From: Coleofasciculus sp. LEGE 07092
GTDB taxonomy: Bacteria; Cyanobacteriota; Cyanobacteriia; Cyanobacteriales; Coleofasciculaceae
NCBI RefSeq assembly: GCF_015207375.1
Contig: NZ_JADEWY010000023.1
Location: forward strand, 1 to 60,604
DNA length: 60,604 nucleotides
Reading direction: 5' to 3'
Shown here: one piece after another, positions 126 to 21,527 of the stretch
Position numbering within the stretch: the first letter of the stretch is position 1
Layout of the letters: every line of letters starts with the position of its first letter
The notes under the pieces: model-generated
Databases searched by the model: none
Told to the model about the DNA's origin: nothing
The model's input: the letters and a program-made list of their open reading frames with translations, nothing else
Translations under genes and position numbers: made by a program

Positions 126-3100
126 ACAAAAGAACTAATCTTGGTATCAGGGTATTCCGGCATCGGTAAATCAGCGCTGGTGCAGGAACTGTACAAACCC
201 ATTACTCGACGGCGCGGCTATTTCATTAGTGGAAAATTTGACCAGTATCAGCGTGATATTCCCTACAGTGCAGTGATTAAAGCATTTCGGGGATTAGTTC
301 GGCAATTGCTAACAGAAAGTACCGCACAGCTTGCTGAATGGCGAAACCATATTTTAACGGCTTTGGGAAGAAATGGGCAAGTTATTGCTGATGTGATTCC
401 GGAAGTGGAACTGATTGTCGGGAAGCAACCTTTATTGCCTAGCTTACCACCTACAGAAGCCCTAAATCGTTTTAATTTGGTGTTTCAAAATTTTATTGCC
501 GTCTTTGCAAAGCCAGAACATCCTTTAGCTATCTTTCTCGATGATTTACAGTGGGCAGATGCGGCTTCTTTAAAATTGATGCAACTGTTGATGACGGCTT
601 CAGAGAGTCACTACCTGTTGCTAATTGGAGCTTATCGAGATAACGAGGTGAGTATAGCTCATCCATTAATGCTGACGTTGGAGGAGATTTGTCAAAGCGG
701 AGCTATTGTTAATCAGATTTATCTGGAACCGTTGGAGTTACCTAGCATTACTCAGCTAATTAGCGAAACCTTAAAATGCTCTGCTGATGAAGCCAAACCT
801 CTTGCTGACTTAGTGAAATTAAAAACAGGAGGTAATCCTTTTTTTATTAATGAGTTCTTGAAATCCCTTTATACAGAAAAACTCTTAGAGTTCAATTTTA
901 AACGTGGCGGTTGGCAGTGGGATTTAGTCAAAATTCAAGCCAGTGGATTTACCGATAATGTTGTTGAATTGATGGCGAATAAGATTCAACAACTCACGAC
1001 TGAAGGTCAACAGGTGTTACAAGTTGCTGCTTGTATCGGTAATTCATTGGACTTAAAAACCTTAGGGATTGTTTTAGAGAAATCTCAAAGAGAAACTGCA
1101 ATCCAATTGTGGGAAGCGGTATCTAAAGGTCTAATTTTACCTTTAGGGGATGAATATAAGTGGATTGGCGGAGTATTCACATCAGATAACACCAGTTCTG
1201 TTAATAAAAATTTAGATAATTTACCGGATAATTTAACGGTTGAATACAAATTCTTTCATGACCGAATTCAACAAGCAGCTTATTCATTGATTCCAGGCGA
1301 TCGCCAAAAAGAAATCCACCTAAAACTGGGTCGGTTGCTATTAAAAACAACTCCTCTAGAGCAACTAGAAGAACGTATTTTTGAGATTGTTAACCCTCTC
1401 AATATCAGTCGTGAGTTAATCACGCTGCCAGAGGAACGCTATCAACTTACCCAACTCAATCTAATCGCTGGCAAGAAAGCTAAGACAGCAACTGCTTACG
1501 AAGCCGCCGTCCGGTATTTAACTTTGGGGTTGGAATTGCTACCTGACAAGAGTTGGCAGTTTCAGTATGATTTAACTCTCAGTCTCCACGTTGAAGCCAT
1601 AGAAGCTGCCTACTTAAATACTCATTTTGAACAGGCAGAAACTCTCGGTAAAGTTGTCTTACAGCAGGCAAAAACCCCGATTGAAAAAGTCAGAGTTTAC
1701 GAGACAAGTATTCTGTTTTCTGTGTCTCAAAATAAAATGCTCTCAGCGATAGACACGGCAGGAGAAATTTTAGAACTGCTGGGAGTATCTTTATCGCAGG
1801 AACCCCCGACTTATCAAACCGTTGAAGAGTTGCTAGAGCTACCAGAGATGACGAATCCGGCTCAACTGGCAGCATTGCGAATTTTAATGAGTGTCATGGC
1901 TCCTGCCTATATTGCTAAACCCTCTCTATTGCCATTACTCATTTTTACAATGGTTAATCTATGCGTAAACTCTGGTAATTCTCCCCTAGCAGCCTATGCC
2001 TATAGCGTTTACAGTTTGCTTTTATGCGGTAAGCCGGAAACCATCGATTGTGGCTATCGATTTGGTAAACTGGCATTAAAATTATTGGATCAATTTGACA
2101 CTAGAGACGTTAAAGCGAAAGTTCACCAGCAGTTTAATGCTTTTGTTCGCCCTTGGAAAGAACCAGTCCGAAAAACCCTCAAGCCATTTCTTGAAACAAT
2201 AAACGTAGCAATTGACAGTGGTGATATTGAATATGCCTGCCACTGTACGGTTAATTACTGCACCTACTCATTTTTTGTGGGACTACCGTTAGATGAGGTG
2301 GAGAGCAGGCAAAACCAACATCTCGAACTGACAAACAAGTACAAGCAATTTTTTCAATTCAATTATATAAAAATATGGCATCAATTGGTTCTGGCGTTAA
2401 AATCTGAAGAAAAAATAGAATCGATAGATGCAATTCTGGAGAAGGATAATATTTTATCAGAATTATTTCAAACCAATAACCAGTTATCTATCTTTTCGTT
2501 ATATTTTTCTGATCTTTTTCTCAGTTACCTTTTTAAAGACTCTGCCCGTTCAGTTGCGAGTGCGGCTTTGGCTGAGAAGTATCTTCCTGGTGTTCGGGGA
2601 TTATTGAACAGTGTTTTATACAATTTTTACTCGTCTCTCGCCTTACTTTCTCTGTGTTCTCAGGTTTCCCAGACAGAGCGCAAGCCCTATCTACAGAAAG
2701 TATCACGGCATCAGAAGATGATGAGTCTGTGGGTAAGCCATGCCCCGTATAACTTTAAACACAAATATGAGTTGGTGGAAGCGGAAAGAGCGAGGGTGCG
2801 GGGTAAAATTGTCACGGCGATGGAGTGTTATGATTGCGCCATTCAAGGTGCGAGAAAATGGGGATACATTCAAGACGAAGCGCTAGCTTACGAATTGGCA
2901 GCAGAATTTTATTTGGCTCTGGGGCGGGAAGAAATTGCTCAAAATTATATGCAAAAAGCTTACTATAGCTACAGTCGATGGGGGGCAACGGCTAAAGTCA
3001 AGCAGTTAGAAGAAACCCACAGCAAATTCTTGTTTGCAACATCAAAAGGAAATAGTCCGAGTAACCTTCATCGAAAATCCTCAACGTTTTCAACAACGAG

Positions 3101-4481
3101 CAGCAGTGAAAGTAATTCTTCGGCAGTTTTAGATTTAGCGACTGTGATGAAAGCGGCGCAAGCCATTTCTAGCGAAACCATACTGGATAAGTTACTGGCT
3201 TCACTGATGAAAATTATGATTGAGAATGCGGGAGCCCAAAAGGGTTTTCTGATTTTAGAAACAAAGGGGCAGCTTTTGATCGAAGCGAAAGGGGTTGTTG
3301 ATAGCGTGCAGCAAGGGTGTGCTGAGTGTAATCAGGTTAAAGTGTTGCAGTCAATTCCTGTTGAAAATTCTCAATTCTTGTCCGTCGCTATTGTCAACTA
3401 TGTTGCCCGTACTCGGGAAACAGTGGTACTCAATGATGCGGTGCATGAGGGTCGATTTACTAACGACTTTTACATTAAAACGAATCTACCTAAGTCTATT
3501 CTCTGTGCACCTTTGATTGATAGAGGTAAACTTAGCGGCATTGTTTATTTAGAAAATAATTTAATCAACGGCGCGTTTACACCCCAGAGATTGGAACTCT
3601 TAAATCTTCTCTCAGCACAAGCGGCGATTTCGATTGAAAATACCCGTTTTTATACAAATTTAGCAGAACTAAATGATGCTTATGAGCGCTTTGTTCCCCG
3701 TCAATTCCTGGAGTTTTTGAATAAAGAGAGTATTGTTGATGTCCAACTCGGCGATCAAGTTCAGCAGGATATGTCGGTGCTGTTTTCTGATATTCGTAGC
3801 TTCACTACCTTGAGTGAAAGTATGACACCGGAGGAAAATTTCCGATTTATCAATTCCTATCTGAGTCGTATGGAACCTGCGATCGCTGAAAATAACGGCT
3901 TTATCGATAAATATATAGGTGATGCGATTATGGCGCTGTTTAGCGGCGATGCCGATGATGCAGTTAAAGCTGGAATCGCTATGCTGCACCGCCTGACTGA
4001 GTACAATCAACACCGCCAAAATCAGCGTTATGCGCCGATTAAAATTGGTATTGGCATTAATACGGGTTTATTGATGCTAGGTACAGTCGGCGGACGCAAC
4101 CGGATGAATAGTACGGTGATTAGTGATGCGGTGAATTTAGCTGCTCGTATGGAGAGTTTGACTAAAGAGTATGGAGTTTCCCTGTTAATCTCTCATTACA
4201 CGTTTGCGAGGTTGCAAAACCCAATGGGCTATTGCATCCGACTAGTCGATCAAGTAAAAGTGAAGGGAAAATCTCGATCGGTGGCAGTTTTTGAGGTGTT
4301 TGACGGTGATCCTCGGGAACTTCGAGAGGTGAAGTTAGCGACTGTCAGCACCTTTGAGGAAGGGTTGCTGCTTTATTACCGCGATCGCTTTTCGGAAGCT
4401 GCACAGCGGTTTGTCGATTGTTTGCGAATTAACCCTAGCGATCGGGTAGCTCAAATCTATTGGGAACGCTGTCAATTATAG
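1..4481 (+). CDS. AAA/STAND-like ATPase - GAF - class III nucleotide cyclase (5' end beyond window)
   Basis: Large cytoplasmic signalling protein that should make cAMP. The reading frame is open to the left edge, so the gene very likely starts outside the window. The first in-frame start codon here is TTG at 141, but the codons just before it encode KELILVSGYSG, which aligns with REMMLVTGYSG in the downstream paralogue. Numbering from 141: Walker A GYSGIGKS at 4-11, Walker B-like FLDDLQWAD near 130, a long helical region, a GAF domain at roughly 1020-1190, and a cyclase domain at roughly 1205-1400 with metal-binding FSDIR, DKYIGDAIM and transition-state NLAARME. Positions 3-92 encode a Ser/Arg/Gly/Ala/Glu repeat just ahead of the ATPase. 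By analogy with the paralogue a kinase-like domain may lie upstream, but it is not visible here. Confidence 0.85.
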   Translation, partial: SRGAGERRSRGAEERGSRGAEERGSGGAGENFSIPHSPLPPTKELILVSGYSGIGKSALVQELYKPITRRRGYFISGKFDQYQRDIPYSAVIKAFRGLVRQLLTESTAQLAEWRNHILTALGRNGQVIADVIPEVELIVGKQPLLPSLPPTEALNRFNLVFQNFIAVFAKPEHPLAIFLDDLQWADAASLKLMQLLMTASESHYLLLIGAYRDNEVSIAHPLMLTLEEICQSGAIVNQIYLEPLELPSITQLISETLKCSADEAKPLADLVKLKTGGNPFFINEFLKSLYTEKLLEFNFKRGGWQWDLVKIQASGFTDNVVELMANKIQQLTTEGQQVLQVAACIGNSLDLKTLGIVLEKSQRETAIQLWEAVSKGLILPLGDEYKWIGGVFTSDNTSSVNKNLDNLPDNLTVEYKFFHDRIQQAAYSLIPGDRQKEIHLKLGRLLLKTTPLEQLEERIFEIVNPLNISRELITLPEERYQLTQLNLIAGKKAKTATAYEAAVRYLTLGLELLPDKSWQFQYDLTLSLHVEAIEAAYLNTHFEQAETLGKVVLQQAKTPIEKVRVYETSILFSVSQNKMLSAIDTAGEILELLGVSLSQEPPTYQTVEELLELPEMTNPAQLAALRILMSVMAPAYIAKPSLLPLLIFTMVNLCVNSGNSPLAAYAYSVYSLLLCGKPETIDCGYRFGKLALKLLDQFDTRDVKAKVHQQFNAFVRPWKEPVRKTLKPFLETINVAIDSGDIEYACHCTVNYCTYSFFVGLPLDEVESRQNQHLELTNKYKQFFQFNYIKIWHQLVLALKSEEKIESIDAILEKDNILSELFQTNNQLSIFSLYFSDLFLSYLFKDSARSVASAALAEKYLPGVRGLLNSVLYNFYSSLALLSLCSQVSQTERKPYLQKVSRHQKMMSLWVSHAPYNFKHKYELVEAERARVRGKIVTAMECYDCAIQGARKWGYIQDEALAYELAAEFYLALGREEIAQNYMQKAYYSYSRWGATAKVKQLEETHSKFLFATSKGNSPSNLHRKSSTFSTTSSSESNSSAVLDLATVMKAAQAISSETILDKLLASLMKIMIENAGAQKGFLILETKGQLLIEAKGVVDSVQQGCAECNQVKVLQSIPVENSQFLSVAIVNYVARTRETVVLNDAVHEGRFTNDFYIKTNLPKSILCAPLIDRGKLSGIVYLENNLINGAFTPQRLELLNLLSAQAAISIENTRFYTNLAELNDAYERFVPRQFLEFLNKESIVDVQLGDQVQQDMSVLFSDIRSFTTLSESMTPEENFRFINSYLSRMEPAIAENNGFIDKYIGDAIMALFSGDADDAVKAGIAMLHRLTEYNQHRQNQRYAPIKIGIGINTGLLMLGTVGGRNRMNSTVISDAVNLAARMESLTKEYGVSLLISHYTFARLQNPMGYCIRLVDQVKVKGKSRSVAVFEVFDGDPRELREVKLATVSTFEEGLLLYYRDRFSEAAQRFVDCLRINPSDRVAQIYWERCQL

Positions 4482-4602: not shown

Positions 4603-7600
4603 ATGCTCACCCTTCCAGGCTATCAGATTCAGTCCAAGATTTATGAGAGTGACAACTCTCTCGTTTATCGAGGCGTTCGAGAGGCGGACAATCAAGCTGT
4701 TATCCTCAAAGTTCTCAAGGGAGAATATCCCACACCCGCAGAACTCACCCAATACAAGCAAGAATATGCGATCGCGCACAGTCTTGACCTAGAGGGTGTG
4801 ATCAAGGCGTATTGCCTGGAGACGTATCAAAATACCTTAGTAATCGTCTTCGAGGATTTTGGCGGAGATTCCTTACACCTATTAATCAATAAACAAACGT
4901 TTAACTTAGCGGAATTTCTCAATCTGGCGATAAAAATTGCCGAGATTCTGAGCCAAATTCACGCCGCCAATATTATCCACAAAGGCATTAACCCATCTAA
5001 CATAATTTTTAACCCAGAAACTGAGCAAATTAAAATAATTGACTTTGGCATCTCTACAGTTTTGAGGCGAGAAACTGCCGCCCTTCAAAATCCCAATGTT
5101 TTAGAAGGGACTCTAGCCTATATGTCCCCCGAACAAACGGGTAGAATGAACCGTTTGCTCGACTATCGTACTGATTTTTACTCTCTTGGTGCTACCTTTT
5201 ATGAACTACTCACCAATCGCCTGCCCTTTGAAACAACCGATCCTCTGGAGTTAGTTCACTGCCATATTGCGAAACAACCTATCCCCCCCCATGAGCTTAA
5301 TTCAGCAATTCCCAAAACCCTCTCAGATTTGGTGATCAAACTTTTAGCAAAAACGGCTGAGGAACGATACCAAAGTGCCTGGGGAATTCAAGCCGATTTG
5401 GTATTGCTGCTGATGCAGTTAGAAGCGAACGGTGAAATTGAGGACATCATTTTAGGGGAGAATGATGTGTCAGACACATTTCAAATCCCACAAAAATTGT
5501 ATGGCAGAGATGCAGCGATTGCCACCTTACTGACTGCCTTTGAGCGTGTGAGCCAGGGAACCCGTGAAATGATGCTAGTAACAGGGTATTCTGGTATGGG
5601 TAAATCAGCGCTAGTACAAGAAATTTACAAACCCGTCACTCGACAAAAAGGATATTTCATTTCTGGCAAATTTGACCAGTTGCAGCGAAATACTCCCTAT
5701 GAAGCCTTGATTAAGGCGTTTCAAAAATTAGTCGGGCAACTCTTAACGGAAAGCGAAACCCAACTCCATTGGTGGCGAGAAAAACTTACCGTTGCGTTGG
5801 GTGCTAATACTCAAATTATTATTGATGTTATTCCAGAAATAGAACTCATTGTTGGTACGCAACCCGATGCACCAGACGTAACACCACCCCAATCTCAAAA
5901 CCGCTTTAGTCTACTCTTTCAAAACTTCATCAAAGTGTTTGCCCAACCTGAACATCCCTTAGTCATTTTTCTAGATGACTTAGAATGGGCAGATTCTGCT
6001 TCGTTAAAACTGATGCAACTGCTGATGACGGCACCGGATAGTCCCTATCTATTTTTAATCGGGGCGTATCGAGATAACGAAGTCAGTGCAGCTCATCCCT
6101 TGATGTTGACTCTGGATGAGATTTGTGAAAGTGGAGCAGTTGTGAATCATATCTCCCTATCACCCTTAGGGTTGCCGGATATCAATCAGCTCATTTCTGA
6201 AACGCTCCACTGTCAAACTCAATCCTCACACGCCTTAGCCGAATTAGTGCTAGCTAAAACGGGGGGAAACCCTTTCTTCTTGCAGGAGTTTTTGCAGTCG
6301 CTGTACGCAGAAAATTTATTAACTTTTGACTTAGATTGCCTGAGTTGGCAATGGGATTTAGCACAAATTCAAGGGCAAAAAATTACCGATAATGTTGTCG
6401 AACTGATGGCTCAAAAGCTTCAAAAATTACCAGAAAATACGCAATGTATTTTAAAATTTGCCGCTTGTATTGGCAATCAGTTTGAGTTAGAGATGTTGGC
6501 AATAGTCAGCGAAAATAATCTACAAGACACAGCCTTGATCCTGCATTTAGCCGTTACTGAAGGTATAATATTACCCCTAAGTGACGCTTACAAGTCTGTT
6601 GAATTAAAGGCAATTAAGGGTAAGGAAAAACTGATCGTTACTTACAAATTTGTCCATGATCGAATCCAGCAAGCTGCCTATTCCCTTATTTCTGACAGAC
6701 AAAAGCAGATCATACACCGACAATTGGGACAGCAATTGTTGCAAAGGACTCCACCGGAAAAGCAAAGTCAGAAAATCTTTGACATTGTTAACCAACTCAA
6801 TTTTAGTATTGAACTTATTAATAACGAATCAGAACGTGTGCAACTGGCACAGTTAAATTTGATAGCCGGTCAAAAAGCAAAAGCGTCAGCAGCGTATGCA
6901 TCAGCCTTTGATTACCTTCAGGTTGGTATCAAGTTATTGGGAGGCGATCGCTGGCAAAAACAGTATCATTTAACCTTAACTTTATACGAGGAAGCAGCAG
7001 AGGCGGCATACCTGCGGGGCGACTTTGAGCAGATGACTCAATTAACAGATACAGTATTTAAACGGGGCAAAACTATTCTGGATAAAGTGAAAGTTTATGA
7101 AATTAAAATTCAGGCGTATACCGTACAAAACAAACTCGTAGATGCTGTACAAATCGGGCAGCAGACTCTCAAACAATTAAGAGTAAGATTACCTAAAAAT
7201 CCAACAACAGTTAACACATTGATCGGCTATCTATCAACAGTCCTAGCCTTAGCTGGAAAAAAGCCCCAAGACTTAAAAGAACTGCCAGATATGACCGATC
7301 CGTACAAACTGGCAACGATGCGCATTCTGTTGAGAACTGCGTCCCCAGCATACTTCACCATTCCCAAACTATTTGCACTCATTGTATTTAAATGTATCAA
7401 ATTATCCGTTAAATATAGCAATGCTGCATCTGCCTATGCTTATGCCACCTACGGACTCATCCTTTGTGGGTTAATCGGTTCTATTACTACGAGCTATGAA
7501 TTCGGTAAGCTTGCCCTTCATTTACTCGATAAGTCCACTAATAAAGAACTCAAAGCTAGGACGCTTTTAATTTTTAATGGCTTTCTCAGGCATTGGAAGG

Positions 7601-9918
7601 AGCCGCTCCGGGAAACCTTAACTCCTTTACTCGATACCTATCAAACTGGACTGGAAACCGGAGATTTAGAATATGCAGCATACGCCATTCATATCTACTG
7701 TATTAATTCCTACTTTGGGGGTAGGGAACTTCCAGGAGTTGAACGAGAGATGGCAATCTATGGTTCTGCGATAGAACAACTCAAGCAAACTACCGCCTTG
7801 TATTCTCATAAAATTTATAGACAAGCTGTACTAAATTTATTAGATCGGGCTGAAAATTATTGTTGTCTGGTTGGTGAGAGTTATGATGAACAGAAAATGC
7901 TGCCGCTTCACCTGGAAGCCAATGATCAGACTGCCGTTTATAGCTTATATCTGAATAAATTTTATTTGTGTTATATCTTTCAAAATAAAACCCAGGCTTT
8001 TGAAACTCTCAAAAAAGCTCAAACCTATTCCCACTGTATTAAAGCTACCATAACAGTTCCTGTTTTTTATTTTTATAGTTCTCTCACTCAGTTAGCCGTT
8101 TATCCAGATGTTTCTAACTCTCTCAAACGTCACCTTCTCCATCAAGTTCGATGGAATCAAAAACGTATGAAACGATGGGCACATCACGCGCCCATCAATT
8201 ACTTACATAAATTTTATCTGGTGGAAGCCGAGCGATATCGAGTGATCGGGCAAGATACTAACGCCATGGAATTATACGATCGCGCCATTACTCTAGCCAA
8301 AGAAAATGAACATCTGAATGAAGAAGCCTTAGCTTACGAACTGGCTGCCAATTTTTATCTATCCAGGGGAAGATATTTAAGTGCCAGAACCTATATGCAA
8401 GAGGCTCGTTACTGTTATCTCAAGTGGGGAGCTACAGCTAAAGTCAAGCAGCTCGATGAAACCTATCCCCAACTCTTCCCCTCTTCCCAACCCAGCGCTC
8501 AAGAATTCCCCTCCACCCCATCGATAACCGGAATCAATTCGAGTGAGGTGCTAGATTTAGCGACTGTCATGAAAGCCTCTCAAGCGATTTCTAGCAATAT
8601 CGTGTTGGATAAGTTATTGGCGTCTTTGATGAAGATTCTCATTGAGAATGCTGGGGCGCAGTTTGGCTACCTGATTTTAGAAGCCAAGGGCAAACTGCTA
8701 ATCGAGGCGTCAGGCTCGGTAGAATCTGAGAGTATTACTGTGTTGCAGTCGATTCCTATTGAAGAGAAGGATAACCTAACTCAACCCCAAAACCTGCCCA
8801 TTCGATTCTCTACAACCCTCATTAATTACGTTGCCCGAACCAAAGACAGTGTAGTATTAAAGAATGCCACGGAGGAGGGCAAGTTTACCAACGATTCTTA
8901 TATCAAAGAATATAAACCCAAGTCAATTTTGTGCGCCCCCCTACTCGATCGGGGTCAACTTGCGGGTATTGTTTATCTAGAAAATAATTTAACCACTGGA
9001 GCTTTTACACCCCAGAGGCTGAAACTCTTAAATCTCCTCTCAGCCCAAGCCGCCATTTCAATTAACAATGCCCGCTTCTACAACAACATGGCAGAACTGA
9101 ATAAGGCTTACGAACGCTTTGTTCCCCGGCAATTTCTCCAGTTTTTAGATAAAGAAAGCATTGTCGATGTCCAGCTAGGCGACCAAATTCAACAGGATAT
9201 GTCGGTGCTGTTTTCCGATATTCGTGATTTTACTAGCTTGAGCGAACGTATGACGCCGGCAGAGAATTTTCAATTTATTAATTCCTATTTGTCCCGGATG
9301 GAACCTGCCATCAGCGAACATCACGGTTTTATCGACAAATATATCGGCGATGAAATTATGGCACTCTTCAGTGGTGGTGCTGATGACGCCGTTAAAGCCG
9401 CAATTGCCATGCTGCATCGCCTGACTGAGTACAACCAACACCGCCAAAAGCAGGGTTACATACCGATTGAGATTGGCATTGGTATCAATACCGGTTCCTT
9501 GATGCTGGGTACGGTTGGGGGACAAAACCGCATGGATGGAACGGTAATTAGCGATGCGGTTAATTTAGCCTCTCGCTTGGAACGCTTGACTAAAGAGTAT
9601 GGAGTTTCCTTGTTAATTTCTCACCACACCCTAGCCCGTTTGAACGACCCAACGGAGTATAACATCCGGTTAGTAGAACAGGTAAAAGTGAGGGGGAAAT
9701 CGAAAGCTGTGGCAGTCTTTGAAGTCTTTAACGGCGATCCGCCGGAACTCCGAGACGTGAAGTTAGCGACAGTGGGAGTATTTGAGGAAGGGTTACTGCT
9801 TTACTACCGCGATCGCTTTTCAGACGCCGCACTACGGTTTACCCATTGCCTGCAAATTAATCCAGCCGATCAAATCGCTCAACTCTACCTCGAACGCTGC
9901 CAGCAACAGATAGGATAG
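4603..9918 (+). CDS. Kinase-like - AAA ATPase - GAF - class III nucleotide cyclase, tandem paralogue
   Basis: A 1771-residue multidomain signalling protein. Residues 1-270 form a Ser/Thr kinase-like domain with Lys36 (AVILK), DFG at 147-149 and SPEQTG. The HRD-equivalent reads HKGINPSN (126-133), so the catalytic Asp is Gly, and the glycine loop is degenerate (IYESDNSLVY). Walker A GYSGMGKS is at 328-335. A long TPR-like helical region follows, then a GAF domain at about 1330-1500 and a cyclase domain at about 1528-1715 with FSDIR, DKYIGDEIM and NLASRLE. The cyclase keeps the Lys and Asp expected for ATP use, so adenylate cyclase is more likely than guanylate cyclase. It aligns with the preceding gene over the whole ATPase-to-cyclase part, so the pair is a tandem duplication. 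The role of the kinase-like domain as an allosteric module is inferred. Confidence 0.92.
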   Translation: MLTLPGYQIQSKIYESDNSLVYRGVREADNQAVILKVLKGEYPTPAELTQYKQEYAIAHSLDLEGVIKAYCLETYQNTLVIVFEDFGGDSLHLLINKQTFNLAEFLNLAIKIAEILSQIHAANIIHKGINPSNIIFNPETEQIKIIDFGISTVLRRETAALQNPNVLEGTLAYMSPEQTGRMNRLLDYRTDFYSLGATFYELLTNRLPFETTDPLELVHCHIAKQPIPPHELNSAIPKTLSDLVIKLLAKTAEERYQSAWGIQADLVLLLMQLEANGEIEDIILGENDVSDTFQIPQKLYGRDAAIATLLTAFERVSQGTREMMLVTGYSGMGKSALVQEIYKPVTRQKGYFISGKFDQLQRNTPYEALIKAFQKLVGQLLTESETQLHWWREKLTVALGANTQIIIDVIPEIELIVGTQPDAPDVTPPQSQNRFSLLFQNFIKVFAQPEHPLVIFLDDLEWADSASLKLMQLLMTAPDSPYLFLIGAYRDNEVSAAHPLMLTLDEICESGAVVNHISLSPLGLPDINQLISETLHCQTQSSHALAELVLAKTGGNPFFLQEFLQSLYAENLLTFDLDCLSWQWDLAQIQGQKITDNVVELMAQKLQKLPENTQCILKFAACIGNQFELEMLAIVSENNLQDTALILHLAVTEGIILPLSDAYKSVELKAIKGKEKLIVTYKFVHDRIQQAAYSLISDRQKQIIHRQLGQQLLQRTPPEKQSQKIFDIVNQLNFSIELINNESERVQLAQLNLIAGQKAKASAAYASAFDYLQVGIKLLGGDRWQKQYHLTLTLYEEAAEAAYLRGDFEQMTQLTDTVFKRGKTILDKVKVYEIKIQAYTVQNKLVDAVQIGQQTLKQLRVRLPKNPTTVNTLIGYLSTVLALAGKKPQDLKELPDMTDPYKLATMRILLRTASPAYFTIPKLFALIVFKCIKLSVKYSNAASAYAYATYGLILCGLIGSITTSYEFGKLALHLLDKSTNKELKARTLLIFNGFLRHWKEPLRETLTPLLDTYQTGLETGDLEYAAYAIHIYCINSYFGGRELPGVEREMAIYGSAIEQLKQTTALYSHKIYRQAVLNLLDRAENYCCLVGESYDEQKMLPLHLEANDQTAVYSLYLNKFYLCYIFQNKTQAFETLKKAQTYSHCIKATITVPVFYFYSSLTQLAVYPDVSNSLKRHLLHQVRWNQKRMKRWAHHAPINYLHKFYLVEAERYRVIGQDTNAMELYDRAITLAKENEHLNEEALAYELAANFYLSRGRYLSARTYMQEARYCYLKWGATAKVKQLDETYPQLFPSSQPSAQEFPSTPSITGINSSEVLDLATVMKASQAISSNIVLDKLLASLMKILIENAGAQFGYLILEAKGKLLIEASGSVESESITVLQSIPIEEKDNLTQPQNLPIRFSTTLINYVARTKDSVVLKNATEEGKFTNDSYIKEYKPKSILCAPLLDRGQLAGIVYLENNLTTGAFTPQRLKLLNLLSAQAAISINNARFYNNMAELNKAYERFVPRQFLQFLDKESIVDVQLGDQIQQDMSVLFSDIRDFTSLSERMTPAENFQFINSYLSRMEPAISEHHGFIDKYIGDEIMALFSGGADDAVKAAIAMLHRLTEYNQHRQKQGYIPIEIGIGINTGSLMLGTVGGQNRMDGTVISDAVNLASRLERLTKEYGVSLLISHHTLARLNDPTEYNIRLVEQVKVRGKSKAVAVFEVFNGDPPELRDVKLATVGVFEEGLLLYYRDRFSDAALRFTHCLQINPADQIAQLYLERCQQQIG

Positions 9919-12534: not shown

Positions 12535-14289
12535 ATGGATAAAGTTAAAATTCTCAATATTTTTATCGATAATTTATCCATGTCAGAGTTTCTCGAAGAT
12601 TTGGAATTTGGCATAGTTTTTACCCCTAACGTTGATCATTTGGTAAAATTACAGAAAGATCAAGAATTTAGACAAGCTTATGATTGTGCTGACTACAAGG
12701 TCTGTGATAGCCAATTAATCCTTTTCTTGTCTAAGCTTTTAGGCTCACCTATAAAAGAGAGGGTTTCTGGCTCTGATTTGTTCCCAGCTTTTTGCCAGCA
12801 TCACAAAAATAATGAAAATATCAAGATATTTCTTTTAGGAGCTGCAGAAGGAGTCGCTCTTAAAGCTCAATATCAAATTAACCAAAAAATCGGCAGGCAG
12901 ATTATAGCCGATGTTCATTCCCCATCCTTTGGATTTGAAAAGAATGAAAAAGAATGTCAGGAAATTATTGGAATAATAAATCAATCTGGAGCTACAGTCC
13001 TGGCAGTAGGAGTTGGATCACCAAAACAAGAGAAGTTTATTTCCAAGTATAAAAAATACTTTCCCAAAATTAAAATATTTTTAGCAATAGGTGCAACGAT
13101 TGATTTTGAAGCGGGCAATGTAAAGAGAGCGCCAAGGTGGTTGAGTAATTCAGGACTAGAATGGCTTTATAGATTGTTGTCTGAACCAAAGAGATTGTGG
13201 AAAAGATACTTGTTTGAAGACGTAATTTTTTTTTGGTTAGTTTTAAAACAGAAATTCAATTTTTATGTGGAACCGTTTATGGAATCAATATCAACAGAAG
13301 AAAACTTCAACTTTCAAGTAACTTTTTCAAACAATACTGCTGTAATGCGTCTGCCTGATCGGTTAACTGTGATTGAAGCTGTTACTTGGAAAAATACTTA
13401 CCAAGATCTTCTCCAAGAAAGTTTAAAATTCAAAGAAATTGTTTTAGATTTCAGTCAAACTAAGTTTATCGATAGCAGTGCTATTGGGGTGCTAATTAGT
13501 AATTATAAAAGGACAGTGGAGAGAGGAATTGAACTTTTACTCAGAGGAGTCAATCCCACGGTGATGGCAGTGTTAGAGATGACGGGACTCGATCAAATTT
13601 TAACGATTGAGTCACCCCGCCAGCGTAAATCGTTAACAAATCCCGTCAGTTGGCCTAAATGTCAGTTGCCAACAACCCATCCTTCCGTTCGTTCGGGGCT
13701 GAAGCGATTTCTGGACATTCTGGGAGCCATCGTGGGTTTAGGAATTACTGCCGTTGTGTTCGTTCCTATTGTCATCGCAATTAAACTCGACAATCCAGGT
13801 CCCATCTTCTTCAGCCAAATCCGTTGTGGTTGGATGGGACAGCAGTTTCGGATATGGAAATTTCGCTCGATGTGTGTTGGTGCTGAACGCCTGCAAGACG
13901 ATATCGACAATCACGCTGATGGGAAAATTTTCAAGAATGAAAATGATCCGAGAATCACGCGAGTCGGTCGTTTTTTACGGAAAACCAGTCTCGATGAACT
14001 GCCTCAGTTCTGGAATGTATTAAAAGGTGAAATGAGTCTGGTAGGCACTCGACCCCCTATACCCAAGGAAGTGGAAATCTATGATGTACCGGAGTGGCAG
14101 CGGTTAGATGTTAAACCGGGAATGACAGGTGAGTGGCAGGTGAATGGGCGATCAAAAATCCGAAATTTTGAGGACATCATTAAACTGGATTTGCGTTATC
14201 AAGAAAACTGGAGTTTGATGCATGACCTGAAGTTAATCGTTAAAACAATTACAGTTGTGTTTGATAAGGATAGTGGTGGTGGTTTTTAG
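12535..14289 (+). CDS. WecG/TagA glycosyltransferase - STAS - bacterial sugar transferase triple fusion
   Basis: One 584-residue polypeptide joins three activities. Residues 1-240 are a WecG/TagA/CpsF glycosyltransferase (TPNVDHL near 30, CDSQLI near 60, GVGSPKQEKFI, GATIDFEAG, RAPRWL), which adds a second sugar to a lipid-linked primer. Residues about 262-360 are a STAS domain with the phospho-acceptor motif D313-S314-S315 (FIDSSAIG), the fold of anti-sigma-factor antagonists. Residues about 384-584 are a monotopic phosphoglycosyltransferase with a hydrophobic re-entrant helix, KFRSM, catalytic D486-E487 (SLDELPQ) and SLVGTRP, which loads the first sugar phosphate on undecaprenyl phosphate. 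The fusion could channel lipid-linked monosaccharide to disaccharide, with STAS phosphorylation as a switch. The switch is inference. Confidence 0.93.
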   Translation: MDKVKILNIFIDNLSMSEFLEDLEFGIVFTPNVDHLVKLQKDQEFRQAYDCADYKVCDSQLILFLSKLLGSPIKERVSGSDLFPAFCQHHKNNENIKIFLLGAAEGVALKAQYQINQKIGRQIIADVHSPSFGFEKNEKECQEIIGIINQSGATVLAVGVGSPKQEKFISKYKKYFPKIKIFLAIGATIDFEAGNVKRAPRWLSNSGLEWLYRLLSEPKRLWKRYLFEDVIFFWLVLKQKFNFYVEPFMESISTEENFNFQVTFSNNTAVMRLPDRLTVIEAVTWKNTYQDLLQESLKFKEIVLDFSQTKFIDSSAIGVLISNYKRTVERGIELLLRGVNPTVMAVLEMTGLDQILTIESPRQRKSLTNPVSWPKCQLPTTHPSVRSGLKRFLDILGAIVGLGITAVVFVPIVIAIKLDNPGPIFFSQIRCGWMGQQFRIWKFRSMCVGAERLQDDIDNHADGKIFKNENDPRITRVGRFLRKTSLDELPQFWNVLKGEMSLVGTRPPIPKEVEIYDVPEWQRLDVKPGMTGEWQVNGRSKIRNFEDIIKLDLRYQENWSLMHDLKLIVKTITVVFDKDSGGGF

Positions 14290-14312: not shown

Positions 14313-15539
14313 ATGGTGTTAAGCAATCATTTAGCGTTCCTAGTTATAAATATTCTACTAATTGCGATCGCTCTGGGATTGTTCGTTCCTGTTGCGGTTC
14401 TTTTTATTGAGTGTACTGCTGCTTTACTGCCAAGTCGTTCCAAGATAGGAAATGTTCAGACACCCCGACCGAGGACTGCGGTGTTAGTTCCAGCTCACAA
14501 TGAAGAATCTGGAATTAGTGCCACCTTGCAAACCCTAGTACCCCAGTTAACAGAGCGAGATCGACTGATCGTCATTGCCGATAATTGCACAGATCGAACG
14601 GCGGAAATTGCTCGAACTTTCGGTGCGACAGCAATCGAACGACAAGATCTCGAACGGCGGGGTAAGGGGTACGCTTTGGACTATGGTTTGCAGTTCATAG
14701 AGGCAGATCCGCCAGATGTAGTCGTGGTAGTAGATGCCGACTGTATTGTTCATCAGGAGACAATTGAACAGATTACCCGCGTCACGGCGGCTTTAGGACA
14801 ACCTGTGCAAGCAACCTACCTGATGGCACAACCAGCCAACCCTAGCCCGAAGGATTCGGTGTCCGCTTTGGCGTTTATGGTCAAAAACTTAGTGCGTTTG
14901 AGGGGATTAGCTCGATTGGGCTTGCCTTGCTTGCTGACAGGCACAGGTATGGCTTTTCCTTGGTCGGTTATTCGTGAAGCACCTCTCGCTAGCGGCAATA
15001 TTGTTGAGGATATGCAGCTTGGTTTAGATTTAGCGATCGCAGGCTATACGACCGTATTTTGCAGCGAGGCTAAAGTGACCGGACTTCTGCCGCAGCAGCA
15101 GCAAGTTGCTAAAGGGCAAAGGACAAGATGGGAACACGGTCATTTGCAAACATTATTAACCCAAGTTCCTCAACTCCTCAAAGCGTCTCTAAGTCAGAAG
15201 CGTTTCGACTTGTTCGCCCTTGCCCTAGATATGTGTGTGCCGCCCCTGTCGCTATTGGTCATGCTCTGGCTAGCTGCCACAGGGTTAGCATTACTTGCAG
15301 GAGCATTGGGAGCAACCTGGATACCAGGGGTTTTGTTAGGAATAGAAGGACTTCTCCTTCTCCTCTCGATTGTTACGGCTTGGGCTAAATTCGGCCGTGC
15401 TGACTTGCCCGTACAGGCGCTGCTGGCTGTACCCTTTTACATTCTGTGGAAGATTCCCCTTTATCTGGCTTTTTTAGTACGTCCTCAGACGAAGTGGATT
15501 CGGACTCAACGGGATGCTGTTGATGCTTCGGAGTCTTGA
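14313..15539 (+). CDS. Membrane glycosyltransferase family 2, processive-type
   Basis: 408 residues. One N-terminal membrane helix (about 8-32) is followed by a GT2 domain beginning RTAVLVPAHNEE, with VDADC near 140 for nucleotide-sugar/metal binding and Q269-RTR-W273, the QxxRW motif typical of cellulose/hyaluronan-synthase-like enzymes. Three hydrophobic segments fill about 300-395. ATG at 14313 follows AAAGGA at a good distance, and the gap to the preceding gene is 23 bases, so they are probably co-transcribed. The sugar donor cannot be read from the sequence. Confidence 0.9.
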   Translation: MVLSNHLAFLVINILLIAIALGLFVPVAVLFIECTAALLPSRSKIGNVQTPRPRTAVLVPAHNEESGISATLQTLVPQLTERDRLIVIADNCTDRTAEIARTFGATAIERQDLERRGKGYALDYGLQFIEADPPDVVVVVDADCIVHQETIEQITRVTAALGQPVQATYLMAQPANPSPKDSVSALAFMVKNLVRLRGLARLGLPCLLTGTGMAFPWSVIREAPLASGNIVEDMQLGLDLAIAGYTTVFCSEAKVTGLLPQQQQVAKGQRTRWEHGHLQTLLTQVPQLLKASLSQKRFDLFALALDMCVPPLSLLVMLWLAATGLALLAGALGATWIPGVLLGIEGLLLLLSIVTAWAKFGRADLPVQALLAVPFYILWKIPLYLAFLVRPQTKWIRTQRDAVDASES

Positions 15540-15745: not shown

Positions 15746-18031
15746 ATGACCCCGGATACTGAACAGGATTCTAAATTCTTATTAAATAGCAAGCCAAGTG
15801 CGCAGTTGCAGGAATTCCCTGTAGAGGAAGAAGTCGAGCCTAGTGCTCCGCCTCAAAAAGGGCTGAATTTGCGTCCCTATTTGAGGACTGCAAAGCGGAG
15901 AGCTTGGCTGATTGCTGGTTTCACCGCTATAACTACGGCTGCTGCCTTGTATTCAAGTTCAAAAGCCCTACCCATCTACGGAGGAAATTTTCAGCTATTA
16001 GTCGAGCCTGCAACCTCTGAACAGAGAATGGCAGATCCTCTTGCTTTGACTCGCAGTCGAGGAGGAGTACCAGATGCGGGCGCTTTTGAACTGGATTATT
16101 CTACTGTTTTCACAATACTAACCAGCTCTAGAATGCTGTCTAGTATTGTTGATCAAATTCAAGCTGAGTATCCCCAGTTTAATGTCGGTCAACTCAGAAG
16201 CGGATTACAGGTCGAACGCCTCAAATCGACACAGTTTGGTCCTGGCAGAGACGCAGAAACCAAGATCGTTCAAATTAGCTATCAGGGGCTAGACCCGGAA
16301 CTGGTCGAATTAGTCTTAGAGCAAACGGCGAAACGATATTTAAAGTACAGCCTTGAGGAGCGCAAGACGAACATTGGTCAAGCGGTTGAGTTCATTGAAG
16401 AACAACTCCCCTCGTTACAAGAGCGAGTCAAGACTCTCCGGGCGCAGCAGCAGAAGTTGCAACAGCAGTATAACCTTATCGATCCTACATCCCAGGGTTC
16501 AGAATTATTCGCCCAAGTTCGTCAACTTGCCAACGAACAAATAGCCGTCCAACGAGAGCTACAGGAACAAAAAACTCTCTACACCCACTTGCAAGAGCAA
16601 TTACGTCTAAATCCCGATGATGCCCTTGCCGCTTCAGCGTTGAGTCAAAACCCTGGCTACCAACAGTTGCTGGCTCAACTGAAGGAAGTAGAATCTCAGA
16701 TTGCAGTAGAGTCAGCTCGCTTCCAACCTGACAGTCCGCAGATCCAATCTTTACAGGAGAAACGACAGAATTTACAAAATTTACTTGATCGAGAAATACA
16801 GCAAATTGTGGGGCAGAACTCAACCAATACTGCCAGCAATCCTCAAGTTTTAGCATTTCAAGATTCGACTCGTCAAGGTCTGATTGGACAATTAGTTGAA
16901 ACCGCTAACCAAATTCAGGTGTTAGAAGTTCGCAATCAAGCACTTCTCCAGACTAAAAATACTTTTGAGCAACAAGCACAGAAATTCCCAGCGATTATCA
17001 GCGAGTATACTCAGCTTCAGGGGGAGTTAGATCTGGCGACTCAAACCCTTAACCAACTCTTGAGTCAGCGCGAAACCCTCCGGGTTGAAGCGGCTCAGAC
17101 TACTGTGCCTTGGGAACTCGTGTCCGAACCTCAGATTGTCCGTGATGGGAGCGGAAATCCACTTCCCCAAGTCGCTGAGTCTAAGAAGAAGCTGATCATG
17201 GCAGTGGCAGCAGGTTTGGTATTGGGTATGGGAACAGCCGTATTTTATGAGAAACTCCGCAATATTTTCTACAGTGTTGAGGATATTGAAGATGCAACCC
17301 GATTGCCCTTGTTAGGAACAATTCCACAGGAGCGCAGCATTGAACCCTCATCAAAATTCAGGCTACTATCGCCAACATTCAGCTCGTTGGCAGAATCTGG
17401 TGAAGAAATTGAAGGTAGTGAACAGAGTAGTTTTCTATTTTGGGAAGCCTTCGATTCCCTCTACACCAATATCCGTTTTATCTCTTGCGATCGCCCAGTT
17501 CGTTCTATAGCTGTTTGCTCGGCTACACCTGGGGATGGCAAGTCTGTGGTTGCTTTACATTTAGCTCAAACAGCCGCCGCCACGGGTCAACGAGTTCTGT
17601 TGGTAGATGCCAATTTGCGATCGCCTAAACTCCATCGGCGACTAGATACACCAAATTTTAAAGGACTCAGTGACCTTCTTGACACGCAGCTAGAACCAAA
17701 AGACCTGATTGAGCAACTGCCTCTAGCGGATAATCTATTTGTATTAACCTCTGGTCAACCTTTACCCAAGTCTACCAAACGGTTAGCATCCGATCGGATG
17801 GATTATCTCAAGGAAAAATTTCAGAGACTCTTCGATTTAGTTATTTACGATACACCCAATCTGCTGGATTACCCAGACGCCAGTTTCTTAGCCGCCAATA
17901 CAGATGGAATCTTGCTAGTTGTGACGGTTGGCGATACTAAGCAATCGTCAGTAATGAAAGCCATTGATCGCTTAAATAATTTTGGTTTACCGCTCTTAGG
18001 ACTAATTGTTAATCGGGTGAAGGCTCGCTAG
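15746..18031 (+). CDS. Polysaccharide co-polymerase with BY-kinase-like domain (Wzz/CpsD fusion)
   Basis: 761-residue inner-membrane protein thought to set chain length and coordinate export. An N-terminal membrane helix (about 53-71) is followed by a Wzz-type region, a long coiled coil (about 215-360), a second membrane helix (about 480-500) and a cytoplasmic P-loop domain. The latter has Walker A ATPGDGKSV (about 593), Walker A' VLLVDANLRSPKLHR and Walker B-like LVIYDTP. The protein ends shortly after LGLIVNRVKAR. The C-terminal Tyr cluster that BY-kinases autophosphorylate is absent, so it may bind ATP without classical autokinase control. Confidence 0.92.
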   Translation: MTPDTEQDSKFLLNSKPSAQLQEFPVEEEVEPSAPPQKGLNLRPYLRTAKRRAWLIAGFTAITTAAALYSSSKALPIYGGNFQLLVEPATSEQRMADPLALTRSRGGVPDAGAFELDYSTVFTILTSSRMLSSIVDQIQAEYPQFNVGQLRSGLQVERLKSTQFGPGRDAETKIVQISYQGLDPELVELVLEQTAKRYLKYSLEERKTNIGQAVEFIEEQLPSLQERVKTLRAQQQKLQQQYNLIDPTSQGSELFAQVRQLANEQIAVQRELQEQKTLYTHLQEQLRLNPDDALAASALSQNPGYQQLLAQLKEVESQIAVESARFQPDSPQIQSLQEKRQNLQNLLDREIQQIVGQNSTNTASNPQVLAFQDSTRQGLIGQLVETANQIQVLEVRNQALLQTKNTFEQQAQKFPAIISEYTQLQGELDLATQTLNQLLSQRETLRVEAAQTTVPWELVSEPQIVRDGSGNPLPQVAESKKKLIMAVAAGLVLGMGTAVFYEKLRNIFYSVEDIEDATRLPLLGTIPQERSIEPSSKFRLLSPTFSSLAESGEEIEGSEQSSFLFWEAFDSLYTNIRFISCDRPVRSIAVCSATPGDGKSVVALHLAQTAAATGQRVLLVDANLRSPKLHRRLDTPNFKGLSDLLDTQLEPKDLIEQLPLADNLFVLTSGQPLPKSTKRLASDRMDYLKEKFQRLFDLVIYDTPNLLDYPDASFLAANTDGILLVVTVGDTKQSSVMKAIDRLNNFGLPLLGLIVNRVKAR

Positions 18032-18307: not shown

Positions 18308-19570
18308 ATGACAATTGCTTATTTAGTTAATCAGTATCCCAAAGTAAGTCACAGCTTCATCCGCCGAGAAATTTCGGGGCTTGAAGCCTGCGGTATTCGA
18401 GTTGCCCGTTTTTCAATCCGCTCCTGCGAATCTGAGTTGGTTGATGAGGCAGACAAACTAGAGTTGGAAAAGACTCGATTAGTTTTAGGAGTTGGCAAGG
18501 TAGGCTTGCTATTTGGCTTGCTCCGCATTTTCGCAACTAAACCTGTTCGTTTCCTAATCGCTTTGGGGCTGACGCTTAAAATTGGCTTAGGTTCAGAGCG
18601 AGGTCTTTTGAATCATTTAGCTTACTTGGCTGAAGCCTGTGTTTTGCTGGGTTGGTTCTCAGAGTTGGGAGTAACCCACGTTCACGCTCATTTCGGGACG
18701 AACTCAACCACAGTGGCAATGTTGTGTCATGTCTTGGGTGGTGTTCCCTACAGCTTTACAGTGCACGGACCTGAGGAGTTTGATAAAGTTAAAGCGATCG
18801 CCTTGGAAGAAAAAATTAAGCGAGCGGCTTTTGTTGTCGCAATCAGTTCCTTCGGGAAAAGCCAGTTATATCGGTGGTGCGAGTATCAACAGTGGTCAAA
18901 AATTCATGAAATTCATTGTGGTGTGGACAAGATGTTTCTGCATCAGTCTCTTACCTCCGTACCGGATGAGCCACGGTTAGTTTGTGTCGGTCGGTTGAGC
19001 GAGCAAAAGGGACATTTACTTTTAATTGAAGCCGCAGGTCAGTTAGCGGCGGAGGGATTGCCGTTTAAGCTGGTATTAGTGGGGGATGGTTCCCTCAGAC
19101 CTCAGATTGAAGCTCGGATTGCCCAGCTTGGGTTACAAGATAATGTTGAGATTACTGGCTGGGCTAGTAATGCTGAGGTTCAGCAACAGATTTTGGCTTC
19201 GCGGGCGCTGGTACTGCCCAGTTTTGCTGAAGGGTTGCCGGTGGTAATTATGGAAGCGCTAGCTTTAGGTCGTCCTGTAATTGGTACTTATGTGGCTGGG
19301 ATACCTGAATTGGTGGAGCCTGAGGTTTGTGGTTGGTTGGTGCCGCCTGGGTCGGTTGAAGAACTAATAGCAGTAATGCGAAAAGTTTTGCAGTTGCCAG
19401 TGGAAACGCTGGAGCGGATGGGTAAGGCAGGAGTTGAGCGGGTTGCCCAACGACACGATGCAGCGAGGGAGGCTGGTAAATTAGCGGTGCTATTTCGAGC
19501 TAGCCTGGAGCCGTTATCGGAGCCAGAAATTAACTCTGAAAAAATTAAGGAGGTTCAATCAGTGAGTTGA
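18308..19570 (+). CDS. Glycosyltransferase family 4
   Basis: 420-residue GT-B retaining glycosyltransferase resembling colanic-acid-type enzymes. The N-terminal half starts MTIAYLVNQYPKVSHSFI. The C-terminal half contains CVGRLSEQKG, LVLVGDGSLR and the EX7E motif EGLPVVIME (about 308-316) that holds the nucleotide sugar and catalytic Glu. The ATG at 18308 follows AAAAAGG directly, so the ribosome-binding site is weak. It is a cytoplasmic, membrane-associated step of repeat-unit assembly; the donor is unknown. Confidence 0.9.
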   Translation: MTIAYLVNQYPKVSHSFIRREISGLEACGIRVARFSIRSCESELVDEADKLELEKTRLVLGVGKVGLLFGLLRIFATKPVRFLIALGLTLKIGLGSERGLLNHLAYLAEACVLLGWFSELGVTHVHAHFGTNSTTVAMLCHVLGGVPYSFTVHGPEEFDKVKAIALEEKIKRAAFVVAISSFGKSQLYRWCEYQQWSKIHEIHCGVDKMFLHQSLTSVPDEPRLVCVGRLSEQKGHLLLIEAAGQLAAEGLPFKLVLVGDGSLRPQIEARIAQLGLQDNVEITGWASNAEVQQQILASRALVLPSFAEGLPVVIMEALALGRPVIGTYVAGIPELVEPEVCGWLVPPGSVEELIAVMRKVLQLPVETLERMGKAGVERVAQRHDAAREAGKLAVLFRASLEPLSEPEINSEKIKEVQSVS

Positions 19571-19715: not shown

Positions 19716-21527
19716 ATGCAAAAATATCTCTCAAAACTATTCTATGTCCTGACAGGAACTAAAAGAAAGCTGGCTTTAATCCTGTTGGCATTCATCTCAA
19801 CATCTGTACTCGAAGCCTTCGGTATTGGACTAATCGGTCCCTTTTTCAGCATAGCGTCTCGCCCCCAAGTGATTCAGGAAGTTTCTATCCTTGACGGGAT
19901 TTATCAGAAACTAGGATTGCAAGAGAGTAGTCAATTTATTTTAATTTTAGGTTTAGTAATTGTTGTCATATTTTGTGTCCAATCCGCCTTATACTTTCTG
20001 GCTCAAACCTACATTTATAGGTACAGCTTCAATCAAAAAACTCGACTAACTTCTAGGTTGATGAAGTCTTATTTAGCAGCGCCTTACACATTTTATTTAA
20101 AACAAAACACAGCGGCTATTATTAAAAACATTCTGACTGAGACAAATACTTTTACTCAAAACAGTCTACAAGCACTGCTAATTTTAATCACCAACCTAAT
20201 TGTTACAGCAGTTCTGTTAATACTACTGGCTTATACTAGCCCACTACTTCTAGTGATGATTCTGGGAATCTTAGTGCCTGTATTTTTATTATTTCAACGA
20301 CTAGGAAACAAATTCCAAAACTGGGGTCAGATTCAATCCCAAACCCAGAGCGAGATGGTGCGCGTTATTAATCATGGCTTGGGAGGATTGAAAGAAACGC
20401 GGGTTATTGGGTGTGAAGAGTACTTTGAGAACCAAATGGATCGGGAAGCTCAGAAATATTCTAGAGCAGCCACCTTATTTCAAGCGGCTCAGTTGTTACC
20501 GAATATTCTGATCAAAACCTGTTTACTTGTTTTTGTGGTACTCTTCATCTCATTATCTCAAGTCTTCTTTAAGAATAACGGACAAGACTTAACCGCAGTG
20601 ATGAGTGTTTTTGCTGTGGCTTCAGTACGCTTAATTCCAGCGTCGAGTCAGTTGATCCAGTCCATCGGCAGAATCCGAAATTCTAGCCATGCTCTTGATA
20701 TGCTCTACTTGGATTTGAAGGAGATAGAGAAACGAGAGGTTTATGTTTACAAGAATAGGGAGTTATTGCCGGAGTCAAAGAACAATGGCTTGGGCAATTC
20801 TAGGTTTAATAAAAATCAAGCCATGACTTTCGTCAATCAAATTGACTTAACTAATGTTACTTACCATTATCCTGACATCTCAGAGCCTGCTGTTAAAGAT
20901 ATTTCTTTAAGTCTTAAAAAGGGTGAATCAATCGCGCTAATCGGTAAATCGGGAGCAGGTAAAACCACATTAGTGGACGTGATTTTAGGTCTATTGGAGC
21001 CGCAGAGCGGCGATATCCAGGTTGATGCTGTATCTGTCTATGACAATATCCGCTCCTGGCAAAATCTAATTGGTTATATTCCCCAGTCGATTTTTCTGAT
21101 CGATGACACAATGGAGAGAAATATTGCCTTTGGTGTTGCCGACGCTCAGATTGACTCGGAGCGATTGCACAAGGCGATTAAAGCAGCACAGCTTGAGGAA
21201 TTAGTAGAGCAACTGCCGGAAGGGATTAAAACTAGCGTTGGAGAAAGGGGGGTGCGGTTATCGGGGGGACAGCGCCAGCGAATTGGAATTGCACGGGCGC
21301 TTTATCATGAACGGGAGATTTTGGTGTTGGATGAGGCGACGGCGGCATTGGATAATGAAACGGAGAGTCGAGTGACTGAGGCAATTAAATCTTTGGCGGG
21401 GACGAAAACGATGATTATCATTGCTCACCGTCTGACTACGGTGGAACATTGCGATCGGGTTTATTGTTTGGAGAGGGGGCGTGTAGTTAAGTCGGGGAGT
21501 TATCAGGAAGTGGTTTTGGAAGGATGA
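19716..21527 (+). CDS. ABC exporter, MsbA/PglK-like, candidate lipid-linked sugar flippase
   Basis: 603-residue half-transporter with an N-terminal six-helix membrane domain (about 1-330) and a C-terminal ATPase. Walker A GKSGAGKTT is near 411, signature LSGGQRQRIGIARAL, Walker B ILVLDEATAALD, and H-loop IIAHRLTT. It should act as a homodimer. No Wzx gene is seen in the cluster, so this protein is the best candidate to flip the undecaprenyl-linked repeat unit, as PglK does. That role rests on context. Confidence 0.9.
   Translation: MQKYLSKLFYVLTGTKRKLALILLAFISTSVLEAFGIGLIGPFFSIASRPQVIQEVSILDGIYQKLGLQESSQFILILGLVIVVIFCVQSALYFLAQTYIYRYSFNQKTRLTSRLMKSYLAAPYTFYLKQNTAAIIKNILTETNTFTQNSLQALLILITNLIVTAVLLILLAYTSPLLLVMILGILVPVFLLFQRLGNKFQNWGQIQSQTQSEMVRVINHGLGGLKETRVIGCEEYFENQMDREAQKYSRAATLFQAAQLLPNILIKTCLLVFVVLFISLSQVFFKNNGQDLTAVMSVFAVASVRLIPASSQLIQSIGRIRNSSHALDMLYLDLKEIEKREVYVYKNRELLPESKNNGLGNSRFNKNQAMTFVNQIDLTNVTYHYPDISEPAVKDISLSLKKGESIALIGKSGAGKTTLVDVILGLLEPQSGDIQVDAVSVYDNIRSWQNLIGYIPQSIFLIDDTMERNIAFGVADAQIDSERLHKAIKAAQLEELVEQLPEGIKTSVGERGVRLSGGQRQRIGIARALYHEREILVLDEATAALDNETESRVTEAIKSLAGTKTMIIIAHRLTTVEHCDRVYCLERGRVVKSGSYQEVVLEG

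Follow-up and report, generated by a model that had tools for sequence, protein, structure and literature searches.

Partner switches tied to polysaccharide, in which a STAS protein is the output, have been described as HmpUVW in Nostoc punctiforme and as SypA/SypE in Vibrio fischeri (PMC8256260, PMC6495340, PMC4517449), and for HmpV of Nostoc, activity in the unphosphorylated state has been proposed (PMC8256260). A second line of work concerns the phosphoglycosyl transferases (PGTs). In the EpsW-EpsZ pair of Myxococcus xanthus, a response regulator is proposed to activate the initiating PGT by direct contact, and CapM, a small PGT, had earlier been reported to be phosphorylated on tyrosine; the same source poses as an open question how bacteria apportion the lipid carrier for which their glycan pathways compete (PMC12802240). 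PGTs with fused functional domains constitute a named class (PMC10942596). Among open-licence papers, we found no publication on a WecG-STAS-PGT or a STAS-PGT fusion.

Here we describe such a fusion from Coleofasciculus sp. LEGE 07092, encoded in a stretch of 60,604 nt that is referred to as the window.

Domain composition of the triple-fusion protein

The triple-fusion gene (12535..14289, + strand) is a complete open reading frame with an ATG start and a TAG stop, and its 584-aa product consists of a WecG/TagA glycosyltransferase domain, a STAS domain and a monotopic PGT domain. Pfam places Glyco_tran_WecG at aa 52-225 (8e-57), STAS at aa 260-359 (2.1e-15) and Bac_transf at aa 390-576 (2.4e-66), with all three above their curated cut-offs, so that a STAS domain flanked by the two catalytic domains, as described in the initial annotation, is indeed what the gene encodes. 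Sequence matches to solved structures run in the same direction along the protein (TagA, then SpoIIAA, then WbaP/PglC), and Foldseek searches with the predicted model returned TagA and SpoIIAA/RsbV for the corresponding parts and a loose match to PglC (target TM-score 0.57-0.59). Because the model of the whole protein is poor (mean pLDDT 66.8, pTM 0.41; the STAS part is good), the arrangement of the domains within it is not interpretable, and the separate folds alone were compared.

The WecG/TagA/CpsF (GT26) domain, with its Pfam core at 12688..13209 (+), scores 192.2 bits against PF03808 (cut-off 27.4) and 125.7 against TIGR00696 (cut-off 69). Thr37, Asn39, Asp65, Arg83 and Gln167 of TagA (7mpk), which we take to be active-site residues, align with Thr30, Asn32, Asp58, Arg76 and Gln165 of the window protein, and the fold match agrees with this assignment.

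The PGT domain (aa 390-576; 13702..14262, +) is identified by Pfam (PF02397, 223.1 bits versus a cut-off of 27), by structure matches and by Foldseek, and in the predicted model its membrane-entering helix spans aa 388-419. Alignment with WbaP and with relatives locates an Asp487-Glu488 pair (13993..13998, +), presumably the catalytic dyad, and this pair is present in all but one (124 of 125) of the distinct STAS-PGT sequences compared, which comprise 5 triples, 57 sequences whose gene has a kinase gene linked to it and 63 without one in the examined stretch. The domain scores 279.8 bits against TIGR03025 (EPS glycosylphosphotransferase; cut-off 295.55), with profile positions 250-442 of 445 matched; we do not assign it to that subfamily, since the score lies below the cut-off and the N-terminal part of the profile is absent here. 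In three triple proteins of Symploca type (L002:7950-9773, L003:7899-9767 and L162:10170-12002) the PGT motif QVNGR is lost, being replaced by KIVDDR, KVVEDR or KVVEER, while Asp-Glu is kept, and we count this loss against the functional reading given below.

The STAS domain and its serine

The STAS domain (aa 260-359; 13312..13611, +) is supported by Pfam, by alignment with SpoIIAA and by its SpoIIAA/RsbV fold. It exceeds the cut-offs of PF01740 (56.8 versus 22.6) and TIGR00377 (64.0 versus 53.45) and falls below that of the SpoIIAA equivalog TIGR02886 (51.7 versus 114.75). Residues Asp313-Ser314-Ser315 are encoded at 13471..13479 (+) by the codons GAT AGC AGT, as the initial annotation had read them. 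Asp313-Ser314 aligns with the Asp-Ser pair of SpoIIAA, the serine of which is an alanine in entry 1tid, as fits an acceptor site. Since Ser314 falls in the column of the Bacillus SpoIIAA acceptor serine (Ser58; PMC8256260), it is the residue that we regard as the candidate switch.

Loss of the STAS residues from most orthologues had been named beforehand as the outcome that would speak against a switch. It was looked for, and Asp-Ser was found in all 125 distinct STAS-PGT sequences, including the five triples. The second serine, Ser315, is variable, being Thr in L003 and Cys in six kinase-linked relatives. Two further features weigh against a phospho-switch: residue 316 of the window protein is Ala, a position at which Gly or a similar residue is found in nearly all relatives, and STAS is the least conserved part of the protein (best identity to relatives 53%, versus 73% for WecG and 82% for PGT). 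The alignments nonetheless support a STAS domain that would be competent to act as a switch.

Distribution of the triple gene and of STAS-PGT

Full-length open triple frames are present at 69-70% identity in L001 (genome G394, Limnofasciculus) and at 60-62% identity in L002 (G390), L003 (G389) and G391, of which L002 and L003 are from Symploca. Together with the window genome, this amounts to 5 of 20 genomes of the window's family, and the same five, all of one family, are those that carry the gene among 388 genomes of the order. The class sample (388 genomes) contains it once, in the window's own genome, as does the phylum sample (386 genomes) among the matches listed, where no other match spans both halves. 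These samples overlap, and a very diverged triple could be hidden by the 1e-152 cut-off applied to order and class and by the three candidates scored per genome in order, class and phylum. Two further genomes of the order passed the 1e-152 cut-off, with two-domain proteins only, and at E <= 1e-30 a match of one kind or another occurs in 196 of the 386 phylum genomes, a count that includes WecG-only and PGT-only matches and hence does not measure STAS-PGT.

The three-domain order, for which a search across cyanobacteria had been suggested, is thus not general, and we discard the idea of a general cyanobacterial three-domain protein: the triple gene is a real fusion, but a lineage-restricted one. 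The accompanying statement that WecG and PGT usually act as separate proteins agrees with our searches, in which the other relatives carry WecG alone or STAS-PGT alone among the matches listed.

The two-domain proteins are more widespread. Loci L001-L080, which are the best 80 of 396 from one scan of species genomes, hold three triple genes (L001, L002 and L003); the two-domain STAS-PGT genes in them number 80 and encode 320-415 aa. The wider and more interesting unit is not the triple protein, it is STAS-PGT with a kinase gene close by, a generality that the initial annotation had missed.

Kinase and phosphatase genes

Of the 80 two-domain STAS-PGT genes in L001-L080, 35 are followed on their own strand by a gene for an RsbW-like kinase, at a distance of -64 to +94 bp in 21 cases and of 436 to 849 bp in 14, and this linkage speaks for a phospho-switch. 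The remaining 45 genes (two with less than 600 bp of contig left) and the three triples of L001-L003 have no linked kinase, which speaks against it. A profile search of the same loci added no linked kinase; its one additional match, weak and distant, is in L064. The 35 linked kinases share E-x-F-x-N, I-W-D-x-G and G-L without exception, as is expected of an ATP site.

The window's own genome follows the wider pattern outside the window. A two-domain STAS-PGT paralogue on another contig (G000:C49) is followed by a HATPase_c_2 kinase gene, and the two genes share 35 bases if the kinase is taken to begin at its first possible start (TTG). Because there are four strong RsbW-like matches in the 6.7 Mb of this genome (21 HATPase_c_2 matches overall), we estimate that the adjacency of STAS-PGT and kinase genes is far above chance. 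A linked pair is found in 15 of 20 hand-chosen genomes, including all five with the triple fusion; in family f6, it was found in three of eight genomes, the other five having been examined only around their best kinase match.

All 21 HATPase_c_2 matches and all six SpoIIE-type phosphatase matches of the genome lie outside the window, which is a whole contig, and this again argues against a phospho-switch. Any RsbW-like kinase that acts on the triple protein would have to be encoded elsewhere or beyond the contig, since none is on it, and the kinase next to the C49 paralogue is by inference the best candidate partner. Other kinases on the contig, the Ser/Thr kinase domain encoded in 4603-9918 and the Wzc-like protein, are alternative candidate partners, and their presence also counts against the explanation that we favor below. 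The partner-switch control that had been suggested for the protein thus holds up in part: the Asp-Ser site in all 125 sequences and the downstream kinase genes are in its favor, whereas the RsbW-like kinase and SpoIIE-type phosphatase are missing from the contig.

Two arrangements of related genes were seen along the way. In genome G042 of family f6 (L212:7262-9121), STAS-PGT, RsbW-like kinase and STAS-only genes lie in a row. In the window's own genome, genes for a STAS-only protein, for a response-regulator-PP2C protein (L148:219-1301) and for an RsbW-like kinase are close together at L211:3969-6159 (G000:C163), a set that resembles HmpUVW.

Gene neighborhood and history of the fusion

The triple gene is the first of a polysaccharide cluster that extends over approximately 12.5-38.7 kb and contains GT2, Wzc-like, GT4 and ABC transporter genes, more glycosyltransferases, a sulfotransferase, dTDP-rhamnose genes and sugar dehydratases. 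On the + strand, the genes that follow encode a GT2 glycosyltransferase (14313..15539), which is the next gene and is kept in relatives' loci, a Wzz/Wzc-like chain-length protein with an ATPase domain of the tyrosine-autokinase type (15746..18031), a GT4 glycosyltransferase (18308..19570) and an ABC transporter with a fused membrane domain (19716..21527), possibly the flippase; these assignments are based on domains and on the loci of relatives (of one relative for the transporter). The sulfotransferase gene lies at 27721-28596, and the polymer of this cluster may accordingly be sulfated.

Outside the cluster, two large adjacent signaling proteins are encoded at 141-4481 and 4603-9918, both of which combine AAA and GAF domains with adenylate/guanylate cyclase domains; an N-terminal Ser/Thr kinase domain is additionally present in the second. 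Two neighboring genes on the - strand (44252-45970 and 46097-47815) each encode a 572-aa protein with ODP/lactamase and flavin reductase domains, which we take to be a probable tandem pair of flavodiiron-type proteins.

L001 has the same order as the window (triple, GT2, Wzc, GT4, ABC). At the same place L007, a contig of genome G395 that shares its genus code with G394 (L001), has a STAS-PGT gene without WecG, followed by GT2, by Alg14-like, GT28-like and second STAS-PGT frames, and by Wzc, with GT4 beyond. L168 and L169 have WecG alone at this position, then GT2, with Wzc and GT4 in the opposite orientation. The GT2 neighbor is thus retained beside the triple in L001, beside STAS-PGT in L007 and beside WecG in L168 and L169. 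Searches with tblastn for the missing half in L007, L168 and L169 gave no credible match (two matches in L169, E > 4). The Symploca triples occur in a different setting, where a divergently oriented, intact-looking two-domain STAS-PGT gene adjoins the triples of L002 and L003, and they may represent a separate fusion.

The second STAS-PGT gene of the L007 cluster (L007:11747-12709) has LHKL in place of LDEL and no NGR motif, and keeps the STAS Asp-Ser; its product is possibly a pseudo-enzyme or a kinase decoy.

The triple gene itself looks, from its sequence, like a head-to-tail join of two whole reading frames, because the internal Met249 (13279..13281, +) at the join lies one alignment column from the start codon of the stand-alone STAS-PGT gene L147. 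The G+C content is uneven along the gene (0.34 in the WecG part, 0.37 in STAS and 0.45 in the PGT part), while the triple gene of L001 has only a small step (0.39, 0.39, 0.41).

On a single clean fusion event, the trees of the two parts of the protein give different answers. For STAS-PGT (38 of 125 rows, picked by hand, being left out), a clade of the five triples alone is rejected (p-AU 0.00085), the triples with L007 are borderline (0.056), and the window, L001 and L007 group together (96/81). For WecG (28 of 31 rows, three distant rows of the earlier tree being left out), the triples alone are not rejected as a clade (0.227), the triples with L145/L146, the tree rows for WecG of L168/L169, form a weak group (77/66), and the window, L001, L145 and L146 group at 84/89. 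The groupings with L007 or L145/L146 were named after the earlier trees, in which the window stood apart from L001 and L007 (STAS-PGT) or L001 apart from the window (WecG; matches below 80 bits or 170 aa excluded), and in each of these trees the triple label had to change three times. Most simply, the ancestor of this locus would have had a triple gene, or two adjacent genes, and each lineage would have lost one half.

Proposed function and alternatives

On balance, we lean towards a phospho-switchable starter enzyme for one exopolysaccharide, with PGT and WecG activities and with a SpoIIAA/RsbV-type STAS switch that would operate through Ser314. The architecture, the conserved residues and the linkage of kinase genes to the two-domain relatives are observed, whereas substrates, phosphorylation, partner, direction of the switch and its effect on activity are deduced; the strong RsbW-like and the SpoIIE-type matches in the genome and the position of the gene in a polysaccharide cluster also speak for this explanation. 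The protein would start the exopolysaccharide of the cluster at approximately 12.5-38.7 kb. Judging from its family, the PGT domain would load a sugar-1-phosphate onto undecaprenyl phosphate, and the WecG domain, again by family, would then attach the second sugar to this lipid-linked product. The STAS domain would be bound, and its Ser314 phosphorylated, by an RsbW-like kinase, for which the product of the gene next to the STAS-PGT paralogue is the most likely choice, and a PP2C phosphatase would reverse this, so that initiation of the polymer would be set at the enzyme itself and not by transcription. We take the unphosphorylated STAS domain to be the permissive form because HmpV is suggested to be active in that state, although by this analogy alone the assignment is close to an even call. 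The substrate channelling envisaged in the initial annotation is possible in the triple protein; the relatives of the locus that carry WecG alone or STAS-PGT alone suggest that it is dispensable. The absence of STAS-PGT at this locus in L168 and L169 and of WecG in L007 also counts against our preferred explanation as a whole.

More broadly, and with more doubt than confidence, we suggest that cyanobacterial polysaccharide initiation is switched at the enzyme, by an RsbW-like kinase and a PP2C phosphatase whose common target would be the STAS domain fused to the initiating PGT. In this lineage, the same switch would also command the second-sugar transferase, which is part of the same chain. 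If gene fusion is taken as a guide to function, an initiating PGT would also be the effector on which free STAS outputs, HmpV and SypA among them, act.

The alternative that survives best, though we consider it rather unlikely, is that STAS has become a spacer or docking module that is no longer phosphorylated in the triple protein, which would then be a constitutive bifunctional starter enzyme. The low conservation of STAS in the window protein fits this, as does the observation that neither in the window nor in L001-L003 does the triple gene have a linked RsbW-like kinase, but a module of this kind would not be expected from the retention of Asp-Ser in five of five triples and in every other sequence compared, nor from the kinase-linked paralogue present in all five triple-fusion genomes.

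Distinctly less probable is a reversed direction of control, in which STAS-PGT acts as a sponge that holds or releases the RsbW-like kinase depending on the enzyme's state, which would make gene expression respond to polysaccharide initiation; the target of the kinase would then be a sigma factor or another STAS protein. Canonical RsbW/SpoIIAB kinases are described as anti-sigma factors (PMC8256260), a STAS-only gene follows the kinase gene in G042, and the second STAS-PGT of L007, with Asp-Ser and without the PGT dyad, is decoy-like. Weakly against this, no sigma factor was found in the 8 scanned of 14 other ORFs longer than 150 aa in the 17 kb around the own-genome pair, and the gene after the kinase of that pair encodes a GT4 glycosyltransferase.

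That a missed stop, a frameshift or a misassembly merged two neighboring genes, as the internal Met at the point where two ORFs would meet and the rise in G+C in the PGT part might hint, is practically negligible and is ruled out by the same full-length open frame in four other genomes (G394, G391, G390 and G389) of two other genera.

Comparison with known systems

Compared with the two-domain STAS-PGT proteins of cyanobacteria, the switchable starter enzyme that we favor has the same domain order and the same Asp-Ser site, at identities of at most 53% (STAS) and 82% (PGT); it differs from them in its additional WecG domain and in that an RsbW-like kinase gene follows in 35 of 80 of theirs. 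Each of its catalytic parts is shared with a known group, TagA/WecG (GT26) on one side and the bifunctional monotopic PGTs on the other.

With the RsbV-RsbW-RsbU and SpoIIAA-SpoIIAB systems of Bacillus, the window protein has in common the STAS fold and the acceptor serine, and its genome has HATPase_c_2 kinases and SpoIIE-type phosphatases as these switches do. Unlike in these systems, the STAS domain here belongs to an enzyme, none of the ORFs scanned near the own-genome pair encodes a sigma factor, and phosphorylation of Ser314 is putative. EpsW-EpsZ, in which a signaling protein activates an initiating PGT by direct contact, resembles the control proposed here, but there, as the source describes it, a response regulator acts on a large PGT, whereas the PGT of the window protein is small and carries a fused STAS domain (PMC12802240).

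In HmpUVW and SypA/SypE, the STAS protein is a free one for which these papers leave the effector undefined (PMC8256260, PMC6495340, PMC4517449), while the STAS domain of the window protein is fused to a PGT. The STAS-PGT fusion, with a kinase gene nearby in many cyanobacteria, thus provides a candidate effector for such free STAS outputs. The half that comprises switch and enzyme is common in cyanobacteria, often just before the matching kinase gene, and this suggests direct on/off control of slime production. The STAS-PGT/kinase pair is a small system in which the effector idea could be probed by a single point mutation.
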